This document shows, piece after piece, positions 1 to 8,186 of a stretch of DNA of 64,000 bases (within the stretch, counting starts at the first letter, position 1; the number at the start of each line of letters is the position of its first letter). The DNA is taken from contig JAFGRY010000033.1 of the NCBI GenBank assembly GCA_016934955.1, positions 1-64,000 on the forward strand, in the 5' to 3' direction. The DNA comes from a bacterium. GTDB lineage: Bacteria > Zhuqueibacterota > QNDG01 > JAGLOF01. Below the pieces are notes generated by a model, which was not told where the DNA came from, did not search any database, and saw only the letters and a program-made list of their open reading frames with translations. Made by a program: the position numbers and the translations under genes.

Positions 1-73
1 CAACATTCAACATACAACATTCACCGGCCCAGCATCATTACCTTGTTTATTGAATGTTCCTTGTTGAATGTTG
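1..73. repeat. Imperfect inverted repeat upstream of the first gene
   Basis: Arms at 1-23 and 51-73 match at 20 of 23 positions when one is reverse-complemented. Both are built from short CAACATT / AATGTTG words. It is the same kind of low-complexity intergenic inverted repeat as those at 840-957 and 1014-1153, but the word is slightly different. It lies just before the gene at 104 and could fold in RNA; no T tract follows, so a terminator role is not supported. Confidence 0.6.
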
Positions 74-103
74 TTCTGTTGATTTTGTATAAGGTAATTA
101 GCC

Positions 104-475
104 ATGAACATAGTGAAAAAAATAAAAATGCACCCCATCCTCACCCTCTTCTACCTCCCCCGGCTGCTGGGGCTGTTTCTCACGGTCCTGATCCTCATCA
201 TGCTCTTCGGACAGGGGCTGCCCGATGTCCATGCCATGATGCTGCGGGAACGGCTCATGACCGGGTGCATGATCGTAATGCTGCTCGGGCTGATCACCGG
301 GTTCAGGTGGGATATGGCCGGGGCCCTGGGCATTCTCACCGGGTTCACGTTCGCCGTCCTGATCGAAAAGGGATTTCCCGGCGGCTGGGTGTTCCCGCTC
401 CTGCTGCTCACCGGCCTTCTCTACCTGGCTTCGTTTATCGTGATCCCTCCTGAACAGAAGAAAGGGGCGCTCTGA
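104..475 (+). CDS. Small integral membrane protein of unknown function
   Basis: A 123-residue protein with a short basic N-terminus followed by about four hydrophobic stretches, near residues 19-37, 50-66, 70-86 and 93-113, and a charged C-terminus ending in EQKKGAL. It should sit in the inner membrane. I recognise no catalytic motif or named family. The ATG at 104 has a possible AAGG ribosome site nine bases upstream. The stop is followed one base later by the ATG of the YciH-like gene, so the two are probably co-transcribed; that pairing gives no clear functional clue. Confidence 0.7.
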   Translation: MNIVKKIKMHPILTLFYLPRLLGLFLTVLILIMLFGQGLPDVHAMMLRERLMTGCMIVMLLGLITGFRWDMAGALGILTGFTFAVLIEKGFPGGWVFPLLLLTGLLYLASFIVIPPEQKKGAL

Positions 476-476
476 G

Positions 477-830
477 ATGGGAAAGGACCGGTCGCTCGTC
501 TATTCCACCGGTGAAGGGCGCATCTGCCCGGACTGCCATCTTCCCTGGGGCGACTGCATCTGCCGGGAAGCGAAACCGGCGTATGCGGGAAGCGCTGTCC
601 TGAAGGTCCGGCGGGAAGTGAAGGGCCGCAAGGGTAAAACCGTCACCACCGTCAGCGGGGTCGGCGGCAGTGAAACCGCCATTGAGGATCTGGCGAAAAC
701 GCTGAAACAGGCCCTGGGCACCGGCGGATCGGTAAAGGAGGGCGTTATCGTCATTCAGGGAGATCACCGTAAGAAAATTGTCGACCTGCTCACGGAAAAA
801 GGATTCACGGTGAAGCTGGCAGGAGGCTGA
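477..830 (+). CDS. yciH: Translation initiation factor eIF1/SUI1-like protein (YciH family)
   Basis: A 117-residue protein with the layout of bacterial YciH. The N-terminus has a small cysteine-containing segment (CPDCHLPWGDCIC, residues 18-30), then the SUI1 fold follows with the typical RRE.KGRKGKTVTTVSG strand region near residues 45-62. The C-terminal part ends in the usual 'IQGDHRKKIVDLLTEKG' helix and a final strand. Family knowledge: eIF1-like proteins bind the small ribosomal subunit and influence start-site fidelity; the bacterial role is non-essential and poorly defined. The N-terminal CxxC...CxC could bind a metal. It starts one base after the previous stop. Confidence 0.88.
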   Translation: MGKDRSLVYSTGEGRICPDCHLPWGDCICREAKPAYAGSAVLKVRREVKGRKGKTVTTVSGVGGSETAIEDLAKTLKQALGTGGSVKEGVIVIQGDHRKKIVDLLTEKGFTVKLAGG

Positions 831-839
831 GAAAAGAAT

Positions 840-957
840 CAATATCCAATAATCAATGTCCAACTCCCAATGATCAAGTGAAACCGGACGTTGCCTGCTT
901 ATTGAAATTCGATAGTGGATATTGGACATTGGATGTTGGATATTGGATATTGAATGG
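840..957. repeat. Intergenic imperfect inverted repeat, TTGGATATTGG type, copy 1
   Basis: The left part (about 840-870) reads as ATCCAAT/GTCCAAC words and the right part (about 916-957) as ATTGGAC/TTGGATATTGG words, so the two ends are imperfect reverse complements around a loop of about 45 bases. It shares a block of about 24 bases (861-884) with the next copy (1030-1053), which marks them as members of one dispersed family rather than chance AT-rich sequence. It occupies the gap after the YciH gene, in which I see no gene. Confidence 0.65.
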
Positions 958-1013
958 GTTTAAGGAACGTTGAAAAAAACAATATCCAGACCCGCGTAGC
1001 GATGTATGGTCCC

Positions 1014-1153
1014 CTGAATAATCAATATCCAACTCCCAATGATCAAGTGAAACTTCTCCGCACGTTCCGGAAGTCGCACAACGTCAGCGGCAAAAGATGG
1101 ATCCGGTTTGGATATTGGACATTGGATATTGGATATTGGCTGTTGGATATTGT
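1014..1153. repeat. Intergenic imperfect inverted repeat, TTGGATATTGG type, copy 2
   Basis: A second copy with left arm about 1014-1050 and right arm about 1108-1153, again of ATCCAAC and TTGGATATTGG words. The right arm is a run of imperfect tandem 7-10 bp units. The spacer differs from copy 1 in length and sequence, while the left-arm block CCAACTCCCAATGATCAAG is identical. It ends about 30 bases before the ATG of the metalloprotease-like gene and so would lie in its leader. Confidence 0.65.
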
Positions 1154-1185
1154 ACAGAGGACAGGAATAAAAAGACGAGCCGCAC

Positions 1186-2079
1186 ATGACAAAAATCATT
1201 ACATCTATTACAGCACCATTACTGCTGCTGCTCATCCTGGAGTGCAGCACAGACAATCCGTACGCTATCGACGGAGAATGGGTGTCGGACATCCCCTTCA
1301 TCATCAATCACGTCGGGCTGCACTATGCCCACGACAACCGGATCTTTGAATCGGACCATTTTCTCACCTTCAGCGACGCCGGCAGTGACGCGGTAAAGAA
1401 ACGGTTCGCCGGGTATGCTGAACGGGCGTTCGCGGAGATTCTCGACGATTTTCACATCCCCTCCGCGTCGTCTCTGGGCATCACCGGTCAGAGCACCAAG
1501 ATGACCATCTACACCAACAAACAGTCGGGCATGATCCAGCTCGCCTTTCCCTACGGATTCATCCTGGACGGCGAGGATTCGCAGACATATGCCAACTGGC
1601 CTGAAGAGATGAAGCCGCGCTATTACAAGCAGCTCAAGCATGAAACCATGCATGTGGTACAGTTCCTTCTGGGGGTGCTTCCGAACGCGGACAACGATTA
1701 CGAACCGGACAAGTGGTTCAACGAGGGGCTGGCCGAGACGATGAGCGGCGGTTTTTTCATTCCCATCACCAGCAGGGCGGAGTTCGACAGCTGGAAAAGC
1801 CGCTGCGGTTCGGTGAATCCGGTTTCCATTCACCAGTGGTCCGACCTCACCATTCCCGCAAACGAAGTCGGTGCCTTTTATCCGGCCTTCGGCCTGGCAG
1901 TCCGCTATCTCGTGCATAAGGACGGCCTCGGCAAACGCTATACCGACATCAAACATATGTTTCAGGAGCTGGCGATGCTGGAGATCACTTTTCCCGAAGC
2001 ATTTGAGAAATACATGGGCATCACGCTGGAAGAGTATGAAAATACATTCTTTGAGCGCATGGATAATTTTCTGAAGTAA
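1186..2079 (+). CDS. Exported gluzincin-type zinc metallopeptidase-like protein
   Basis: A 297-residue protein with an N-terminal hydrophobic segment ending at Cys20 (LILEC). That cysteine may be lipidated, but Glu before it is unusual, so ordinary export is also possible. HETMH at residues 152-156 fits the HExxH zinc motif, and NEGLAE at 179-184 supplies a plausible third ligand, Glu180, as in MA-clan gluzincins. 'Peptidase MA-like' is the nearest description; no substrate can be named. The stop codon is immediately followed by the first palindromic element (from 2080). No strong ribosome site precedes the ATG. Confidence 0.7.
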   Translation: MTKIITSITAPLLLLLILECSTDNPYAIDGEWVSDIPFIINHVGLHYAHDNRIFESDHFLTFSDAGSDAVKKRFAGYAERAFAEILDDFHIPSASSLGITGQSTKMTIYTNKQSGMIQLAFPYGFILDGEDSQTYANWPEEMKPRYYKQLKHETMHVVQFLLGVLPNADNDYEPDKWFNEGLAETMSGGFFIPITSRAEFDSWKSRCGSVNPVSIHQWSDLTIPANEVGAFYPAFGLAVRYLVHKDGLGKRYTDIKHMFQELAMLEITFPEAFEKYMGITLEEYENTFFERMDNFLK

Positions 2080-2162
2080 GTACTTGTGACAAGTCAATTC
2101 GTAAAGGACAGTCTGAAGTGTGAAGTGTATTGATATACAACAGAATGACTTGTCACAAGTAC
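2080..2162. repeat. REP-like palindromic element 1 (long-loop variant)
   Basis: Arms at 2080-2095 and 2147-2162 are exact reverse complements (GTACTTGTGACAAGTC and its complement), but the loop is 51 bases instead of the usual 3. It starts directly after the TAA of the metallopeptidase gene and ends 25 bases before the aminotransferase ATG. Each arm contains the self-complementary word ACTTGTGACAAGT, so the arms can also fold on their own. It may be an element with an insertion in its loop, or two half-elements. Confidence 0.85.
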
Positions 2163-2187
2163 TGCTGTACCAAACCGGAGCCATTCA

Positions 2188-3333
2188 ATGCCTCTACAGC
2201 CTTTCACCCTCGAACGCTACTTCGCGAAACACGAATTCAGCGCCCGCTACCTCCTCTCATCCTCGGACTGTGAACCCCTGCCCATGACCGACCTGCTGGC
2301 CATGGCATCGGACGGAACTGCCGCCCTCTGGCATGACCTGACACTCGCCTACACCGAATCGGCCGGGCACCCCCTGCTCAGGGAGATGATCGCCTCTATC
2401 TATCGCGGACTAAACGCTGAGGACATTCTCACCGCAGCACCCGAAGAGATCATCTACCTCTTCATGAACACTTTTCTCGAGCCCGGGGATCACGTCGTTT
2501 CCACTTTCCCCGGCTACCAGTCGCTCTACGAGCTGGCCCGCGCCCGCAGCTGCCGTCTCTCCTTCTGGAAGCCCAGGGAGGAGGAGGGCTGGGCCTTCAC
2601 CGCCGCCGATCTGGAAGCGCTGCTGGAGCAGGACACAAAACTGGTGGTCATGAACTTCCCCCACAACCCGACTGGATATGTGCCGCCGGCGAAAGAATAC
2701 GAAAAGATGGTCCGGATGGCGACGGACCGCGGCGCCCTGGTCTTCTCGGACGAGATGTACCGGTTCCTGGAGATCGTTCCGGGAACGACCCTGCCGGCCG
2801 CCTGCGAGCTCTCGGACCGGGCCGTCAGCCTCTTCGGCCTCTCCAAGAGCTTCGGCCTTCCCGGCCTGCGCACCGGCTGGCTCGCCTGCCGGGACGGAGA
2901 TATCCTGCGGAACATGCAGGAGCTGAAGGACTACACCACCATCTGCGGCAGCGCCCCCTCGGAGATTTTAGCCATGATCGCCCTGGAGAACCGGGTACGG
3001 ATCATCACCGGCCATATCGAACGGGTGCGGAAAAACCTCGCGCTGCTGCAGGATTTCGGCAAACGGTTACTTGTGACAAGTCCACAGGACTTGTCACAAG
3101 TAACCGGCCAGCCTGCAGTCTTCGAACTCATCCCTCCCGTCGGCGGCTCGGTCTGCTTTCCCCGCCTGCCGGGAGTGGGTTCCACCTTCGATTTCTGCGA
3201 GCGGCTGGTGAACGAGGCCTCGATCATGCTGCTGCCCTCGAAACTGTTCGAGTGGGATGACACCCATGTCCGTATCGGCCTGGGACGGGAGAATTTCCCG
3301 GAGGTGCTGGAACGGTTTGTACGGTACTTGTGA
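2188..3333 (+). CDS. PLP-dependent class I/II aminotransferase with an in-frame palindrome insert
   Basis: A 381-residue fold-type I aminotransferase. Visible signatures are 'NFPHNPTGY' in the cofactor-binding region, 'SDEMYR', and 'SLFGLSKSFGLPGLRTGW', where Lys220 should form the internal aldimine with pyridoxal phosphate. Substrate specificity cannot be read. Codons for residues 293-306 are one complete palindromic element (3064-3106). It is translated as roughly LLVTSPQDLSQVT between the large domain and the C-terminal 'PPVGGSVCFPRL' segment, apparently in a linker. The TGA stop also lies inside a second palindrome (3325-3359). A ribosome site GGAG sits seven bases before the ATG. GC is high, as in the core genome, so the enzyme looks native and the palindromes look like later insertions. 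Confidence 0.9.
   Translation: MPLQPFTLERYFAKHEFSARYLLSSSDCEPLPMTDLLAMASDGTAALWHDLTLAYTESAGHPLLREMIASIYRGLNAEDILTAAPEEIIYLFMNTFLEPGDHVVSTFPGYQSLYELARARSCRLSFWKPREEEGWAFTAADLEALLEQDTKLVVMNFPHNPTGYVPPAKEYEKMVRMATDRGALVFSDEMYRFLEIVPGTTLPAACELSDRAVSLFGLSKSFGLPGLRTGWLACRDGDILRNMQELKDYTTICGSAPSEILAMIALENRVRIITGHIERVRKNLALLQDFGKRLLVTSPQDLSQVTGQPAVFELIPPVGGSVCFPRLPGVGSTFDFCERLVNEASIMLLPSKLFEWDDTHVRIGLGRENFPEVLERFVRYL
3064..3106. repeat. REP-like palindromic element 2, inside the aminotransferase gene
   Basis: A perfect 20-bp stem (3064-3083 with 3087-3106) around the loop ACA. The core arm is ACTTGTGACAAGTCC, extended by CGGTT on the outside. It is in frame with the surrounding codons and contains no stop in that frame, so the enzyme's reading frame passes straight through it. 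This is the only copy inside a coding region other than at its very end. Confidence 0.93.
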
Positions 3334-3359
3334 CAAGTCCGTTGGACTTGTCACAAGTA
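3325..3359. repeat. REP-like palindromic element 3, spanning the aminotransferase stop codon
   Basis: Perfect 16-bp arms (3325-3340 and 3344-3359) with loop GTT. The TGA at 3331-3333 within the left arm ends the aminotransferase, so the last residues (Tyr-Leu) and the stop are supplied by the element. The right half precedes the ribosome site of the next gene. Confidence 0.92.
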
Positions 3360-3377
3360 ATCACCATCGGAGGGAAC

Positions 3378-4757
3378 GTGGACACCAACACACAGGTTTT
3401 TAACATCGCATGCCTTTGCCTGAGCATGGCACTGTTTCCCGGAACCGCCCGCGGGGGCGACATCTACACATTCTCTGGAACGCTTGCAGATGTGCACAAT
3501 TCCACTTATGCGATAGCCGGCGCCAATCTCACATTCACAAGCCCTGACGGCATAACCTATCCTACAGTTCAAACACAGGCTGACGGCACATTCACTACAG
3601 CTATCGACACGCCTGTTGAAGAAGACGACCATGACCAAACATCTCTTAAGTACTCGTCATATGCAGTCGGGCACGGCGAGAACACTCGAATGATCAGGTG
3701 GTCAACCCCAATCAGAGGTACAGCAAACATCAAGATTTTTAACATCCTCGGACAACTCGTAGATGAGGGACAGGTAAGCTATGGCCAGGGCGGCTATCAT
3801 CAGGTAAACTGGGACATGCCCTCTAATGCCGCAACACAGATGTTCCTTGCATTGGTCGAGGTGCAGGACGCACAGGGCAGGCATATTCTCAAGAACATGA
3901 AGATGATGGGCGGCTCAGGAGTAGGAAGCGGCTTTTCTTCTGTTGGCTCGTTCCAGAAAACCTCGAACGCAACATACACTGAATCACTTGAGAAAACAAC
4001 CAACGGCAGCTACTGGAAACTGGTCATCGACCACCCTGACTTCAGGACAAGGGAAGTGCTGTTTGACTTGGCTGATGGCGGCAGTTATAATCTCGACCTT
4101 GATATGATTAGCAACAGCTTTGATTTGGGTTTCTTTGATGAGATAACATACAGAATGAACGGCAGCGGCACTCTTAGATGGGCAGAGGCACCCCAGCTCT
4201 ATATCGTAACTGATAATCCTTCAGGCAAGACCGGCTACCGCGCGCCAACACAAGCCCAGATAGACATGATAAAAGACATCTGGAAAAACAAGATATACGA
4301 ATTAACCGGCGGAGAGATTGAAGTGACAGATTCGATGATAACGCTGGGCAATGATCCTCTTGGAGATGGTGCTGCAGAGATTGTATTGGATAATGGGAAT
4401 TTAAAACCTTCTGTGGGGTATAATGTAGTGTGCTGGAGTGACCTGTTGCCAAGAATTGGTGCTCATGGAGAGTTCTATGCTAGTGATTATAATAATCAGG
4501 AGAATCCGCATATCATCCAGGGTGCGACACAAATACTTAATCCTTGGTATAATCCAACATCTCCTGAATATGATATTGCCATGGTTGAAACAATGCAAAG
4601 CCTTGGCTTCCCTAATGACCCTGCTGATAAAAATAAAAGATGGGATGGCACAACTCATGAACCAACAGAATTGATGAGGCAGTGTGTGAAATTAAATTAT
4701 GAAAGGATGTATGCAACATATTCCCCTGATAGAAGCACAGTCCCAGAATCAATCTAA
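3378..4757 (+). CDS. Exported multidomain protein of unknown function, AT-richer than its neighbours
   Basis: I take the GTG at 3378 as start (459 residues) because GGAGGG lies just before it; the frame stays open upstream to 3330 only through palindrome 3. A signal peptide (to about residue 26) is followed by a beta-rich region like carboxypeptidase regulatory domains. Next, near residues 105-175, comes a segment resembling FlgD/T9SS-type Ig folds ('IKIFNILGQLVDEG', 'GGYHQVNWD'). The C-terminal 200 residues contain 'MVETMQSLGF', which looks like a metzincin HExxHxLGF motif with both histidines replaced; that reading is inference. The second half is clearly lower in GC than flanking genes and differs in codon use, suggesting transfer. 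I assign no function. Confidence 0.65.
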   Translation: MDTNTQVFNIACLCLSMALFPGTARGGDIYTFSGTLADVHNSTYAIAGANLTFTSPDGITYPTVQTQADGTFTTAIDTPVEEDDHDQTSLKYSSYAVGHGENTRMIRWSTPIRGTANIKIFNILGQLVDEGQVSYGQGGYHQVNWDMPSNAATQMFLALVEVQDAQGRHILKNMKMMGGSGVGSGFSSVGSFQKTSNATYTESLEKTTNGSYWKLVIDHPDFRTREVLFDLADGGSYNLDLDMISNSFDLGFFDEITYRMNGSGTLRWAEAPQLYIVTDNPSGKTGYRAPTQAQIDMIKDIWKNKIYELTGGEIEVTDSMITLGNDPLGDGAAEIVLDNGNLKPSVGYNVVCWSDLLPRIGAHGEFYASDYNNQENPHIIQGATQILNPWYNPTSPEYDIAMVETMQSLGFPNDPADKNKRWDGTTHEPTELMRQCVKLNYERMYATYSPDRSTVPESI

Positions 4758-4807
4758 TTCTTAAGAACAAACAACATTCTAGAGGGTGTACTCAGTATCC
4801 AGCGTGT

Positions 4808-4840
4808 ACTTGTGACAAGTCCTCCGGACTTGTCACAAGT
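4808..4840. repeat. REP-like palindromic element 4
   Basis: Perfect 15-bp arms (4808-4822 and 4826-4840, ACTTGTGACAAGTCC and its complement) around loop TCC, in the gap between the exported protein and the RAYT transposase gene. It is 60 bases upstream of the transposase ATG. Confidence 0.93.
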
Positions 4841-4900
4841 GCCGTAAATGTAAACAGCAATCGATTGATCCCCGGCTGAGAATTGCTATATTATCTGATC

Positions 4901-5479
4901 ATGCGATGCCGCAAAGAACAATTCATCAAGAACAGTATATTTCACATCTACAACCGAACCATATCGGGCGAACGCCTCTTCAGAGATGATGACGACTATC
5001 TGAAATTTCTCAGAAAACTCAAAGATACGGTTCCCCGCTATCCCTGTTCACTCTATGCCTACTGCCTCATGCCCACCCATTTTCATTTTCTGATCCGGCA
5101 GGACGGCGATGAATCTATATATAAAATTTTCAATCATGTGCTGTCATACTACGTGCAGACATTCAATTTCAAGCACAAACGGCGGGGCCGCCTCATGCAG
5201 GGGCCGCTGCAGCATATTCAGGTGGTAAAAGAAAATCATCTTTTCCTGCTCAGTCAATACATCCATCTGAACCCGGTGAAGGCGAACCTGGTCAATACAC
5301 CCCATGACTGGGTCTATTCAAATTTCCGTGAATGGGTCGGCACCAGGAAGGGGACGTTATATGTCGATGCGCTGTTAAAGCGTTATTTCAACAATTCACT
5401 GGATGACTACTGGGAGGCGGTTGAAAAGTATCAACAAAATCCGGATGACCTGGAGGGTATAACGTTTGATGAGTCGTAA
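4901..5479 (+). CDS. REP-associated tyrosine transposase (RAYT), IS200/Y1 family
   Basis: A 192-residue Y1-type transposase starting at the ATG at 4901; a TTG 18 bases upstream is less likely. The HUH metal motif is HFH at residues 60-62 within 'CLMPTHFHFLIRQ'. The catalytic tyrosine should be one of Tyr83/Tyr84 in 'LSYYVQTFNFKHKRRG', and 'YIHLNPVKANLV' is a hallmark of the RAYT branch. Family knowledge: RAYTs bind and nick single-stranded REP palindromes and are single-copy domesticated relatives of IS200. Palindromes 4 and 5 flank the gene (4808-4840 and 5480-5526), and five more copies lie within 3 kb, so this is the likely agent of their spread. The gene is AT-richer than the chromosome around it. 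Confidence 0.92.
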   Translation: MRCRKEQFIKNSIFHIYNRTISGERLFRDDDDYLKFLRKLKDTVPRYPCSLYAYCLMPTHFHFLIRQDGDESIYKIFNHVLSYYVQTFNFKHKRRGRLMQGPLQHIQVVKENHLFLLSQYIHLNPVKANLVNTPHDWVYSNFREWVGTRKGTLYVDALLKRYFNNSLDDYWEAVEKYQQNPDDLEGITFDES

Positions 5480-5526
5480 AACAGTTACTTGTGACAAGTC
5501 CTGCGGACTTGTCACAAGTAACTGTT
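5480..5526. repeat. REP-like palindromic element 5
   Basis: The longest stem of the set: perfect 22-bp arms (5480-5501 and 5505-5526) with loop TGC. It begins directly after the TAA of the transposase gene. With element 4 it brackets the RAYT gene, giving the palindrome-transposase-palindrome arrangement expected of a REPtron. Confidence 0.93.
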
Positions 5527-5552
5527 GCGAAAGGGAAACAGTATGCGTATAT

Positions 5553-5576
5553 TGCTTGTAGGAAAACCTACAAGCA
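5553..5576. promoter_or_regulatory. Perfect hairpin or operator-like palindrome before the antitoxin gene
   Basis: Ten-base arms TGCTTGTAGG (5553-5562) and CCTACAAGCA (5567-5576) with an AAAA loop. It ends 11 bases before the antitoxin ATG and touches its ribosome site (AGGGG, 5576-5580). RHH antitoxins usually bind a palindrome at this position to repress their own operon, so an operator is the leading idea; an RNA hairpin that hides the ribosome site is the alternative. It is unrelated to the REP-like arms. Confidence 0.55.
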
Positions 5577-5587
5577 GGGGCATTACC

Positions 5588-5830
5588 ATGAGTGTGATGA
5601 GTATTCGAATCGATGATCAAAAACGAAAAGCATTAAAAGTGATCGCGTCCATAGAAGGGAAAACGATGGGAGGCATTGTTTCCGAGCTGATTGACGGGTA
5701 CATCGACAAGAACAAGAAAAAATTGTCGGGACTTTCAGAAAATGAAAATGTACGGGAAATAATGGGAATGTCCGAGCCGGCATTCAGGGAGTGGGATAAT
5801 AAAGAAGACGAGATATATAATGACATGTAA
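5588..5830 (+). CDS. Ribbon-helix-helix antitoxin of a MazEF/PemIK-type pair
   Basis: An 80-residue protein if started at ATG 5588, with AGGGG seven bases upstream. 'SIRIDDQKRKALKVIAS' and the following helix pattern 'MGGIVSELIDGYID' give the strand-helix-helix of CopG-like DNA-binding antitoxins (residues 4-40). The acidic C-terminal tail (residues 41-80) would wrap the toxin. The last 11 bases overlap the toxin gene, a typical translationally coupled antitoxin-first order. Confidence 0.82.
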   Translation: MSVMSIRIDDQKRKALKVIASIEGKTMGGIVSELIDGYIDKNKKKLSGLSENENVREIMGMSEPAFREWDNKEDEIYNDM

Positions 5831-6155
5831 AAAATGGACGATCGTTTTAGTCCCTTTTCCTTTCTCGGATTTGTCAACCACCAAAAAACGTCCCGCCCTG
5901 GTCGTTTCACCGGACGAATACAATACGTATTCAGATGCCGTTATCGCTTTCATAACCAGCAACCTGGATGTGAAACACAGACTCGGTGATTACCTCATAC
6001 AAAACTGGCATGAGGCACATTTACCGAAGCCATCGATGATACGGATGAAATTCGCCACTATCGACAACAAGATGATTATTAAGCAAATCGGCCGGTTGTC
6101 CGCATACGACATCAGTGAATTTAAAAAGTCACTCACTGCCTTTTTTATTGCTTGA
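5820..6155 (+). CDS. MazF/PemK-family mRNA interferase toxin
   Basis: A 111-residue protein with the PemK-like beta barrel. 'IVLVPFPFSDLSTTKKRPALVVS' near residues 8-30 is the family's first signature, and 'SMIRMKFATIDNKMIIKQIGRLS' near residues 73-95 holds the later conserved strand. Family knowledge: these toxins cut mRNA at short sequences and are neutralised by the partner antitoxin; the target sequence cannot be predicted here. The ATG overlaps the antitoxin by 11 bases. The pair sits between palindromes 5 and 6, suggesting it arrived in the same accessory region. Confidence 0.88.
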   Translation: MTCKKWTIVLVPFPFSDLSTTKKRPALVVSPDEYNTYSDAVIAFITSNLDVKHRLGDYLIQNWHEAHLPKPSMIRMKFATIDNKMIIKQIGRLSAYDISEFKKSLTAFFIA

Positions 6156-6159
6156 CGGC

Positions 6160-6192
6160 ACTTGTGACAAGTCCTGCGGACTTGTCACAAGT
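6160..6192. repeat. REP-like palindromic element 6
   Basis: Perfect 15-bp arms (6160-6174 and 6178-6192) with loop TGC, four bases after the stop of the toxin gene. It could act as a 3' hairpin for the toxin transcript, but no T tract follows. Confidence 0.93.
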
Positions 6193-6213
6193 ACGGGGGT
6201 GGATGGAATTTCC

Positions 6214-6242
6214 TTGCAATAAAAAAACGATCTGATTACATT
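6214..6242 (+). promoter_or_regulatory. Candidate sigma-70-type promoter for the gene at 6336
   Basis: TTGCAA (6214-6219), a 17-base spacer and TACATT (6237-6242). A start near 6250 would place palindrome 7 in the 5' leader, just upstream of the ribosome site. The pattern resembles the candidate miaB promoter (TTGCTT, 17 bases, TACATT). Confidence 0.45.
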
Positions 6243-6274
6243 ACATTTTATGCACTCAGAATACGCACCTCAAT

Positions 6275-6317
6275 TGGTTACTTGTGACAAGTCCTGCGGA
6301 CTTGTCACAAGTAACCA
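6275..6317. repeat. REP-like palindromic element 7
   Basis: Perfect 20-bp arms (6275-6294 and 6298-6317) with loop TGC, ending a few bases before the ribosome site AAAGGAG of the gene at 6336. It is the last copy seen; the remaining 57 kb appears to hold none. Confidence 0.93.
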
Positions 6318-6335
6318 TACAAAAGGAGTTCATAT

Positions 6336-7163
6336 ATGAAAAAATTGACTGCTTTGCTGCTTGTGTTACTGCCAATTTCCTCCCTGCTCGCCCAGGACAC
6401 CATCACCGGCACCTATTCCTACACATACGGCGACAGTGAGAGTCTTGTCGAGGCCCGTCAGACCTGCAAGGATCTGGCGCTGAGGGAGGCGATCGAATCC
6501 TATTCGGTATTCGTTCAGTCATCCACGGATGTGGAAAACTACCAGCTCAAATCGGACATCATCACCACTATCAGCGGCGGCAACCTGAAAAACGTCACCG
6601 TGATCGACCAGAAAGAAGAAGGGCGGAAAATCACCATGACCGTTTCCGCGGAGGTGGATCCCGAAGAGATCAAAGCGCTGATCGAACAGGCACGGGCCTC
6701 CTTCGGAAAGGCCGCTGAAACAACCGTCGCCGACACCGCTGGAGCCGATGAAGGCGATTCGCCCTTTCTCGAAGCGCTGGAAAAACATAAACTGGATCTT
6801 GGTGACACATCCGGCGGTTCCGTGGATCCCGACAGGCTCCTGGAGCTGTTCCGCACATACAAGCCTTCGGAAAAGAATACATTCCAGTGGCTTGTCTATC
6901 AGTCACTGCTGAAGCGCATGGAGATTGTCAAAGGGCTGCGTACACTGAAGGAACTCGAGACGGGGAACAAACCGGTGCGGGCCCGGGCGCAGATGCGCAG
7001 GGTCGATGCCATGGCCCTGGAGCTGTTTCGCCTGGTCAGGCAGATCCAGAACAGTGAGCTGCAAAAGACCAGGCTCAAAGTGCTGCGCGCGCGCTGGGTG
7101 AGCCAGTGCCGGGAGCTGCTGCAAACAGTGAAAACAAAAAGCGACCACTATTCGCGCCGGTAA
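6336..7163 (+). CDS. Exported protein of unknown function with an LPP20-like N-terminal domain
   Basis: A 275-residue protein with a clear signal peptide (MKKLTALLLVLLPISSLLAQ, cleavage after Ala19 likely). The next 85 residues, from 'GTYSYTYGDSESLVEARQTC' through 'ITMTVSAEVDPEEI', resemble LPP20/FlgO-like domains of exported proteins: an early helix rich in A/E/R and strands ending in a 'V.A.VD...' motif. The second half is helical and basic, without motifs I recognise. A ribosome site AAAGGAG precedes the ATG. The gene converges on the DUF4097 pair with a shared hairpin terminator between them. Confidence 0.7.
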   Translation: MKKLTALLLVLLPISSLLAQDTITGTYSYTYGDSESLVEARQTCKDLALREAIESYSVFVQSSTDVENYQLKSDIITTISGGNLKNVTVIDQKEEGRKITMTVSAEVDPEEIKALIEQARASFGKAAETTVADTAGADEGDSPFLEALEKHKLDLGDTSGGSVDPDRLLELFRTYKPSEKNTFQWLVYQSLLKRMEIVKGLRTLKELETGNKPVRARAQMRRVDAMALELFRLVRQIQNSELQKTRLKVLRARWVSQCRELLQTVKTKSDHYSRR

Positions 7164-7216
7164 CCGTTCCGGCCTCGTGGACGGCGCTCCCCGTTTCGGA
7201 AGGAGCATCAAACAAA

Positions 7217-7248
7217 AAGGCGCCCGCGGCTTCAGCCGCGGGCGCCTT
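7217..7248. terminator. Bidirectional hairpin terminator between convergent genes
   Basis: A perfect 14-bp stem of mostly G and C (AAGGCGCCCGCGGC with its complement) around loop TTCA. It is preceded by an A run and followed by TTTA, so it can serve both the gene ending at 7163 and the one ending at 7269. The T tract is short. Confidence 0.75.
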
Positions 7249-7268
7249 TACGTCTATGCCGCAGTGTG

Positions 7269-8186
7269 TTACTTTTTCAGGACGGCCTTGCCGGTCCCGG
7301 TCGAGATGAAAAACCGCCGTTTCTCATTTCCGGTCGAATAGGTTTTTTCCAGCGTTCTATCCTTCTTCGTCCCGTAGATATTCTCGGTCTGGAAATCAAC
7401 CGGAGCGACAATCCTGCCCGCACGCTCATTGCATTTCATTGTCAGGGATCCGTCAAGGGGCACGCCTTTCAGGTCGACGAGTGCGGCGCCGAGACCGGTA
7501 TTCACGTGAAGCTCGAACTCGTCACCCTTCGGTTCGATGACGCTGACATCAGCGAGGCCCGAATTGAAATTGCCCTCGAACAGAATGGTGACATTCTCGG
7601 CCTTCACCGATCCTGTCCCGCTGTTGGCCTGAATCTCGCCTTCCGTGTTTTCAATGGTGACCCGTCCGGTGCCGGTGTTGCAGTTGAATTCACCTTCACA
7701 TCCGACAATGATGACATTGTTCGTACCGGTATTCAGATCGTACTCGCCTTTGGCGTCGGTGACCGTGATGCGCCCGGTTCCGGTATTCCCTTCGAACTCG
7801 ATGTCGCAGCCGCTGATCTCTATATTGCCGACACCGGTGTTGAAATCGATTTCGATCCCGTCCGGCACGCGGATCGTCCAGCTGACACTGCCATCCCTGT
7901 CTTCGTCGTAATCGTTGTCGTACTTCTCTTTCAGCGAGAGCCGTTTGCCCCGGGCGCTGAATTCGGGAGTAAAGTACTTGTCGTCAAAACTGTAATCGAC
8001 AACGACATGGACATCACTGTCACCGCTTTTGACGATCTCCACACTGCCGAGCGCGAATTCACATGTGATAGCGGAGATGCCGGAAAACTTTTTGTCCACT
8101 TTCTTGTCGATGCCCGCATACAGTGAGCAGGTAAGCACGGCAAAGAGCAGTCCGACTGCCGGCAGATATGATTTTCTCATGGTCAT
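7269..8186 (-). CDS. Exported DUF4097-type beta-helix protein with NTGTG repeats
   Basis: A 305-residue protein with a signal peptide (to about residue 24), followed by a DUF4097-like right-handed beta solenoid. The repeat unit is roughly 18-20 residues long with variants of NTGTG: 'NTGVGNIEI', 'NTGTGRITV', 'NTGTNNVII', 'NTGTGRVTI', 'NSGTGSVKA', 'NTGLGAALV'. Proteins of this family are exported and often form small operons, but their role is not defined. The ATG at 8186 has AAGGAG six bases upstream. It follows a paralogue by 24 bases, so the two form an operon; in the paralogue the turn word is ASGD instead of NTGT. Confidence 0.82.
   Translation of the reverse strand: MTMRKSYLPAVGLLFAVLTCSLYAGIDKKVDKKFSGISAITCEFALGSVEIVKSGDSDVHVVVDYSFDDKYFTPEFSARGKRLSLKEKYDNDYDEDRDGSVSWTIRVPDGIEIDFNTGVGNIEISGCDIEFEGNTGTGRITVTDAKGEYDLNTGTNNVIIVGCEGEFNCNTGTGRVTIENTEGEIQANSGTGSVKAENVTILFEGNFNSGLADVSVIEPKGDEFELHVNTGLGAALVDLKGVPLDGSLTMKCNERAGRIVAPVDFQTENIYGTKKDRTLEKTYSTGNEKRRFFISTGTGKAVLKK

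Follow-up and report, generated by a model that had tools for sequence, protein, structure and literature searches.

A perfect palindrome of 43 nucleotides lies in frame inside the gene of a PLP-dependent aminotransferase-like protein in the bacterial contig stretch analysed here (64,000 nucleotides, hereafter the window), and comparison with homologous genes confirmed that a mobile palindrome has been inserted in frame into the enzyme gene. Very probably, this palindrome is hairpin DNA of the self-complementary TIR or REPIN type linked to a RAYT (REP-associated tyrosine transposase, Y1/HUH family), entered an accessory PLP enzyme gene by a recent chance insertion, and encodes a peptide that is tolerated as a flexible loop on the protein surface. 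Sequence analysis established the element family, the insertion, its reading frame and the phylum-wide association with RAYT genes.

An in-frame palindrome in an aminotransferase-like gene

The element occupies positions 3064 to 3106 of the window (CGGTTACTTGTGACAAGTCC ACA GGACTTGTCACAAGTAACCG), with arms of 20 bp and a loop of 3 nucleotides. Codon 293 of the host gene (2188-3333, forward strand, 381 amino acids) begins at 3064, so that the palindrome is in phase, encoding R293 to T306 and the first base of codon 307. Read in the frame of the gene it gives RLLVTSPQDLSQVT without a stop, in agreement with the original prediction of an in-phase, stop-free element of about 14 residues. One of its other frames is open (VTCDKSTGLVTSN) and one contains stops; since two of the three frames can be translated, use of the present one is not by itself improbable. 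The predicted folding energy of the hairpin is -22.7 kcal/mol as single-stranded DNA, against -4.4 for shuffled sequences (z = -10.4), and -33.9 kcal/mol as RNA. Chance alone would give about 6e-5 perfect 15+3+15 palindromes per 64 kb, and the window has six copies of a single sequence. Third-position GC is 0.385 in the element versus 0.81 in the host gene, and the predicted tryptic peptide of the insert-bearing protein is LLVTSPQDLSQVTGQPAVFELIPPVGGSVCFPR.

Relatives of the enzyme were gathered from whole genomes and GTDB contigs, and the 60 that span the site were aligned. Opposite the element there is a gap of 14 columns in 59 of these homologues and of 16 columns in the other one (L068). 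The same gap appears in pairwise alignments of the enzyme with the solved relatives 3op7 and 8fft, and most of the closer full-length homologue loci measure about 1,083 to 1,107 nucleotides, versus 1,143 here. The exactness of the 14-residue gap indicates a 42-nucleotide insertion, an in-frame insertion having been supposed from the window alone, and none of the 60 aligned homologues has an equal number of residues at the site, so the insertion reading stands. The palindrome (43 nucleotides) and the net insertion (42 nucleotides) differ by one nucleotide, which would be either a target base at a boundary or a small indel accompanying the insertion; protein alignments at 56 to 58% identity fit both.

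The host gene was characterised by Pfam, alignments, an AlphaFold2 model and its fold. Its product is a fold-type-I PLP enzyme matching Pfam Aminotran_1_2 (E 3e-35); its best NCBIfam matches are PRK07324, capreomycidine synthase VioD and GntC, all under the curated cutoffs, and its closest structural neighbours are 3op7/3p6k (TM ~0.9) and GntC (8fft/8ffu). All 44 positions that are invariant in a 39-sequence alignment are retained, including N160, D188, Y191, K220 and R362. The gene has no further frameshift or stop, and full-length alignment with the best homologues (56 to 58% identity) reveals no other notable indel. In the model, which was built from the 39-sequence alignment (mean pLDDT 93.1, pTM 0.92), the insert comes right after a long helix (residues 269-295), and the element-encoded residues 296-305 are the sole segment with pLDDT below 50. 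The location in a linker before the C-terminal domain thus agrees with the model, and the expectation that a loop could tolerate the peptide is matched by the prediction of a flexible loop at the surface, following the interdomain helix. The description of the enzyme as core-like did not hold: order-level relatives have at best a match of 34% identity or less, the best homologues (56-58%) are proteins of Anaerolineales, and, as far as sequence comparison goes, the gene is accessory and a member of the PRK07324/capreomycidine-synthase-like PLP group.

A second copy of the element (3325-3359) supplies the last two codons of the enzyme and its TGA stop codon (3331-3333). Several homologues terminate at nearly the same position, so the C-terminal loss caused by this copy is a few residues at most.

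The element family and its RAYT gene

The family to which the element belongs has the core ACTTGTGACAAGTCC-NNN-GGACTTGTCACAAGT and comprises nine compact copies and one long-spaced pair in the 4.4-Mb genome. The core form is present in eight copies, six of them at 3064-6317 of the window and the others on contigs 14 and 52, one on each; the contig-52 copy carries a symmetric A-to-C and T-to-G change by which pairing is kept. In the ninth, found on contig 48, the centre is shorter. The RAYT gene is surrounded, at 2081-6317 of the window, by six compact copies together with the long-spaced, REPIN-like pair (2081-2161, half-sites 53 nucleotides apart). Besides the two copies in the enzyme gene, there is one upstream of the RAYT gene (4808-4840), one with 22-bp arms directly after the RAYT stop codon (5480-5526), one 4 nucleotides past the stop codon of a PemK-like toxin gene (6160-6192) and an intergenic one before the gene that begins at 6336 (6275-6317). 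Three stop codons, with their last bases at 2079, 5479 and 6155, are each followed closely by a copy. The elements are 33 to 47 nucleotides long, with arms of 15 to 22 bp and a 3-nucleotide loop, and the 13-nucleotide half-site, ACTTGT-S-ACAAGT, is itself symmetric. In five of the eight core-form copies the outer arms add at least two pairs, and their sequence varies between copies with complementarity kept. These divergent yet complementary outer arms (window 3064-6317, contigs 14 and 52), like the symmetric change on contig 52, look as if one arm had been corrected from the other.

A search of 82 genomes of the phylum found the exact element in none other than that of the window. The element was absent from IMG/VR, and a plasmid search with the region returned only two short matches (69-77%); in these searches no viral or plasmid source was found. 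Between element copies and directly 3' of the RAYT gene, positions 5525-6155 encode a ribbon-helix-helix-like protein and a PemK/MazF-like toxin (PF02452, E 4e-15), which likely constitute a toxin-antitoxin pair. Elsewhere in the window, clusters of degenerate 14-nucleotide repeats (TTGGATATTGGACA... and its complement), both direct and inverted, were noted at 834-955 and 1017-1148.

The RAYT gene (4883-5479, forward strand, with ATG 4901 as a possible start) matches PF01797 (Y1_Tnp) above the cutoff and has an HxH motif and the conserved Tyr. Its match to NF047646 (E 1.5e-17, 63.8 bits) is below the equivalog cutoff of 80, and its match to TnpA_REP (4er8) is weak (E 0.003). Copies of the element lie 42 to 60 nucleotides before the gene and directly after it. 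Thirty RAYT loci of the phylum were examined for 15+3+15 palindromes with at most two mismatched pairs; such palindromes flank the RAYT gene on both sides in 14 of them, that of the window included, and the control loci (389 kb minus one run of N) contain roughly one per 35 kb. The flanking sequence varies by lineage (for example AACCTTGCGAAGGTT, AGAAGGTAACCTTCT, ACGTGACCGTCACCT and ATCCTCCCGAAGGCT). Because of this two-sided arrangement at 14 of 30 loci, and with copies of the element itself flanking the RAYT gene of the window, the link between element and RAYT, part of the original prediction, is well supported. In a Bacteroidetes MAG (L058, 269-301), a perfect 15+3+15 palindrome of similar design (AGACTTTCCAAGTTT TTA AAACTTGGAAAGTCT) was also noted, closely preceding an aminotransferase homologue, from which the design may extend beyond the phylum.

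In-frame palindromes in hybrid sensor kinases

Two other RAYT-linked palindrome families are present in 30 and 10 of the 82 genomes, with at most 38 copies per genome. Eighty distinct copies were viewed in context as a sample, not a census, the copies on contigs 14 and 52 being those of the window's own genome; ORFs of less than about 150 amino acids spanning palindromes, and one of 284 amino acids in L243, were counted as spurious. Five of the 80 copies are in frame within proteins read as stretches of about 760 to 1,070 amino acids, all of them hybrid two-component kinases with Y_Y_Y, HisKA and HATPase_c domains and most with receiver and AraC-type parts too in the stretch read. Two further in-frame copies in G056 bring the total to seven copies in five hybrid kinase genes, in one family of the phylum (loci L222, L228, L229, L152 and L260; palindrome CCTTGCGAAGGTT-NNN-AACCTTCGCAAGG and a variant CCTTCCG...). 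The seven copies occupy three sites: one precedes the Y_Y_Y domain, one is a loop where the ATPase domain begins, and one precedes the receiver domain. All seven are read in one frame, as P.EG..PS.G, with D replacing E in one eroded copy. Some are pristine and others eroded, and eroded versions are common to several genera. The kinase genes are related, so the insertions are not all independent.

Pairwise dN/dS ratios of three insert-bearing kinase genes were 0.29 (dS 0.24), 0.22 and 0.22. Estimated in this way, the ratios show purifying selection on the kinase genes that carry inserts and do not imply that the inserts are useful. A literature search for such palindromes in hybrid kinases gave few relevant matches and no description of them. 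In kinase linkers before the receiver domain (L256, L257, L265 and L260), there are also stretches such as NPPSKGD and SPLEGGLRG, which resemble the translated form of a further family of short repeats.

It is conceivable, though we hold it only tentatively, that RAYT-linked 15+3+15 palindromes are a recurrent source of in-frame linkers, used at the same three sites in kinases, always in the polar Pro/Gly/Ser-rich frame (P.EG..PS.G), and persisting under purifying selection; the insertion in the enzyme gene would then be a fresh event of the same process.

Known systems, alternative readings and significance

REPINs are paired REPs in inverted orientation, linked to RAYTs, whose two half-sites make one hairpin. 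The elements described here resemble them in having two inverted half-sites in one RAYT-linked hairpin, but the spacer is only 7 nucleotides (53 in one copy) and the genome has only ten units. The integron attC consensus starts with RYYYAAC and ends with GTTRRRY, and attC sites were rejected since the outer-armed palindromes have the opposite order, beginning with GTTAC and ending with GTAAC; no integron integrase was seen among the ORFs at 1-8000 of the window. There is a close likeness to TIRtrons, or TIRYTs, which in the portions of Di Nocera et al. 2013 (PMC3733652) drawn on here are described with self-complementary ("double palindromic") TIRs, that is, with wholly self-complementary repeats, unrelated to GTAG REPs, on both sides of a RAYT-type gene, and with small dispersed families of such repeats. 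All of this recurs in the window's genome, which has a Y1/HUH gene of the RAYT group, the same repeat on both sides of it (4808-4840 and 5480-5526) and dispersed copies on contigs 14, 48 and 52, and the two-sided arrangement is found at 13 other RAYT loci as well. The element sequence, however, is a new one, the RAYT lineages of the phylum keep to one 15+3+15 design, and the same portions of that paper give in-gene copies for GTAG and CGTC REPs and not for TIRtron TIRs, whereas here an untagged self-complementary repeat lies in a gene.

The intragenic GTAG and CGTC REPs, as those portions present them, are likewise small palindromes that are translated in frame, donate stop codons to flanking ORFs and are mostly intergenic or just after stops, but their stems are of 5 to 13 bp, against arms of 15 to 22 bp and a 3-nucleotide loop here. 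Membership of either superfamily was rejected, as neither tetranucleotide is present in the in-gene element or at the foot of its hairpin. Rickettsia RPE-1 and other RPEs also lie in frame at a tolerated place in otherwise intact protein genes, just as the enzyme element is absent from homologues and in frame in an intact host gene. At 33 to 47 nucleotides versus 105 to 146 bp (PMC2229807), with few copies and a presumed mobiliser, the RAYT, adjoining, the elements do not belong to the RPE families. A Rickettsia guanylate kinase with such an insert is active with altered substrate affinity (PMC2229807). The view that mobile palindromes within genes are known mainly from Rickettsia, and that a RAYT-linked case is unusual, has to be given up, with in-frame REPs, including RAYT-linked GTAG REPs, noted within genes of several species in the parts of PMC3733652 cited and with the recurrence in this phylum.

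Four other readings of the element at 3064-3106 are less likely than a tolerated RAYT-linked insertion. There is an outside chance that the enzyme gene is already a pseudogene, struck by two elements (inside and at its end) and stop-free so far only through the youth of the insertion, given that a single gene holds two copies and that the lack of a close orthologue in the same order may mark it as a dispensable acquired gene; its full-length identity of 56 to 58% to the best homologues, with no other notable indel and the invariant residues all kept, the confident fold of the model, and a C-terminal loss of a few residues at most, near the point where several homologues end, argue against decay. 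Retention of the hairpin for a role in mRNA or DNA (ribosome slowing, shielding of mRNA ends, gyrase or protein binding), with translation as a by-product, is improbable. The hairpin is very stable and several copies are within 15 nucleotides of a stop codon, a distance at which REPs of E. coli have been reported to lower translation (work cited in the part of PMC12306157 used here), but the enzyme copy is deep within its gene, the outer arms and loops vary between copies, and the genome has only about ten. No T run follows the in-gene hairpin, and an intrinsic terminator was therefore rejected.

A reading of the palindromes as operators for a DNA-binding regulator, and not as mobile elements, is very improbable: the symmetry of the 13-nucleotide half-site does recall dimer-binding sites, but copies are mostly downstream of genes and once within a coding region, the outer arms differ by copy while remaining complementary, the same design with unrelated sequence flanks RAYTs elsewhere, and a clean 42-nucleotide insertion is not the way in which operators originate. 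Hardly credible is an assembly artefact, in which short reads were misjoined at one of several near-identical palindromes; the genome is in 52 contigs and six such palindromes occur within about 3.3 kb, but the sequences on either side of the element match successive segments of the same homologues, with order, strand and frame all correct, and every copy is distinct in its loop or arms.

In the preferred reading of a RAYT-linked insertion, the RAYT would recognise the hairpin in single-stranded DNA, cut and rejoin it by HUH chemistry, and so disperse copies, mostly locally. Most insertions into genes would be lost, the survivors being those with a length divisible by three, an open frame and a loop position. 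At codons 293-307 the net 42 nucleotides would have preserved the frame, the element having landed in one of its two stop-free frames, and the 14-residue peptide, presumably translated, would be tolerated as a flexible loop that follows the interdomain helix on the protein surface, with activity retained and an effect close to neutral. As the palindrome is still perfect, the enzyme copy appears to be a recent survivor, and the element is read here as selfish DNA that a loop on the protein surface tolerates.

A mobile palindrome in frame within a protein gene is an already known phenomenon; the constant 15+3+15 design across the phylum, the in-frame position of untagged self-complementary RAYT repeats and the recurrence in linkers of sensor kinases go beyond the sources consulted. 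The enzyme gene offers a clean case, not from Rickettsia, in which the gene of a seemingly intact enzyme is read through a mobile palindrome and the presumed mobiliser adjoins it, and one fixed palindrome design, varying in sequence, accompanies RAYTs across the whole phylum. The pristine and eroded copies in kinases of related genera make it testable whether such inserts are only tolerated or become useful as linkers.
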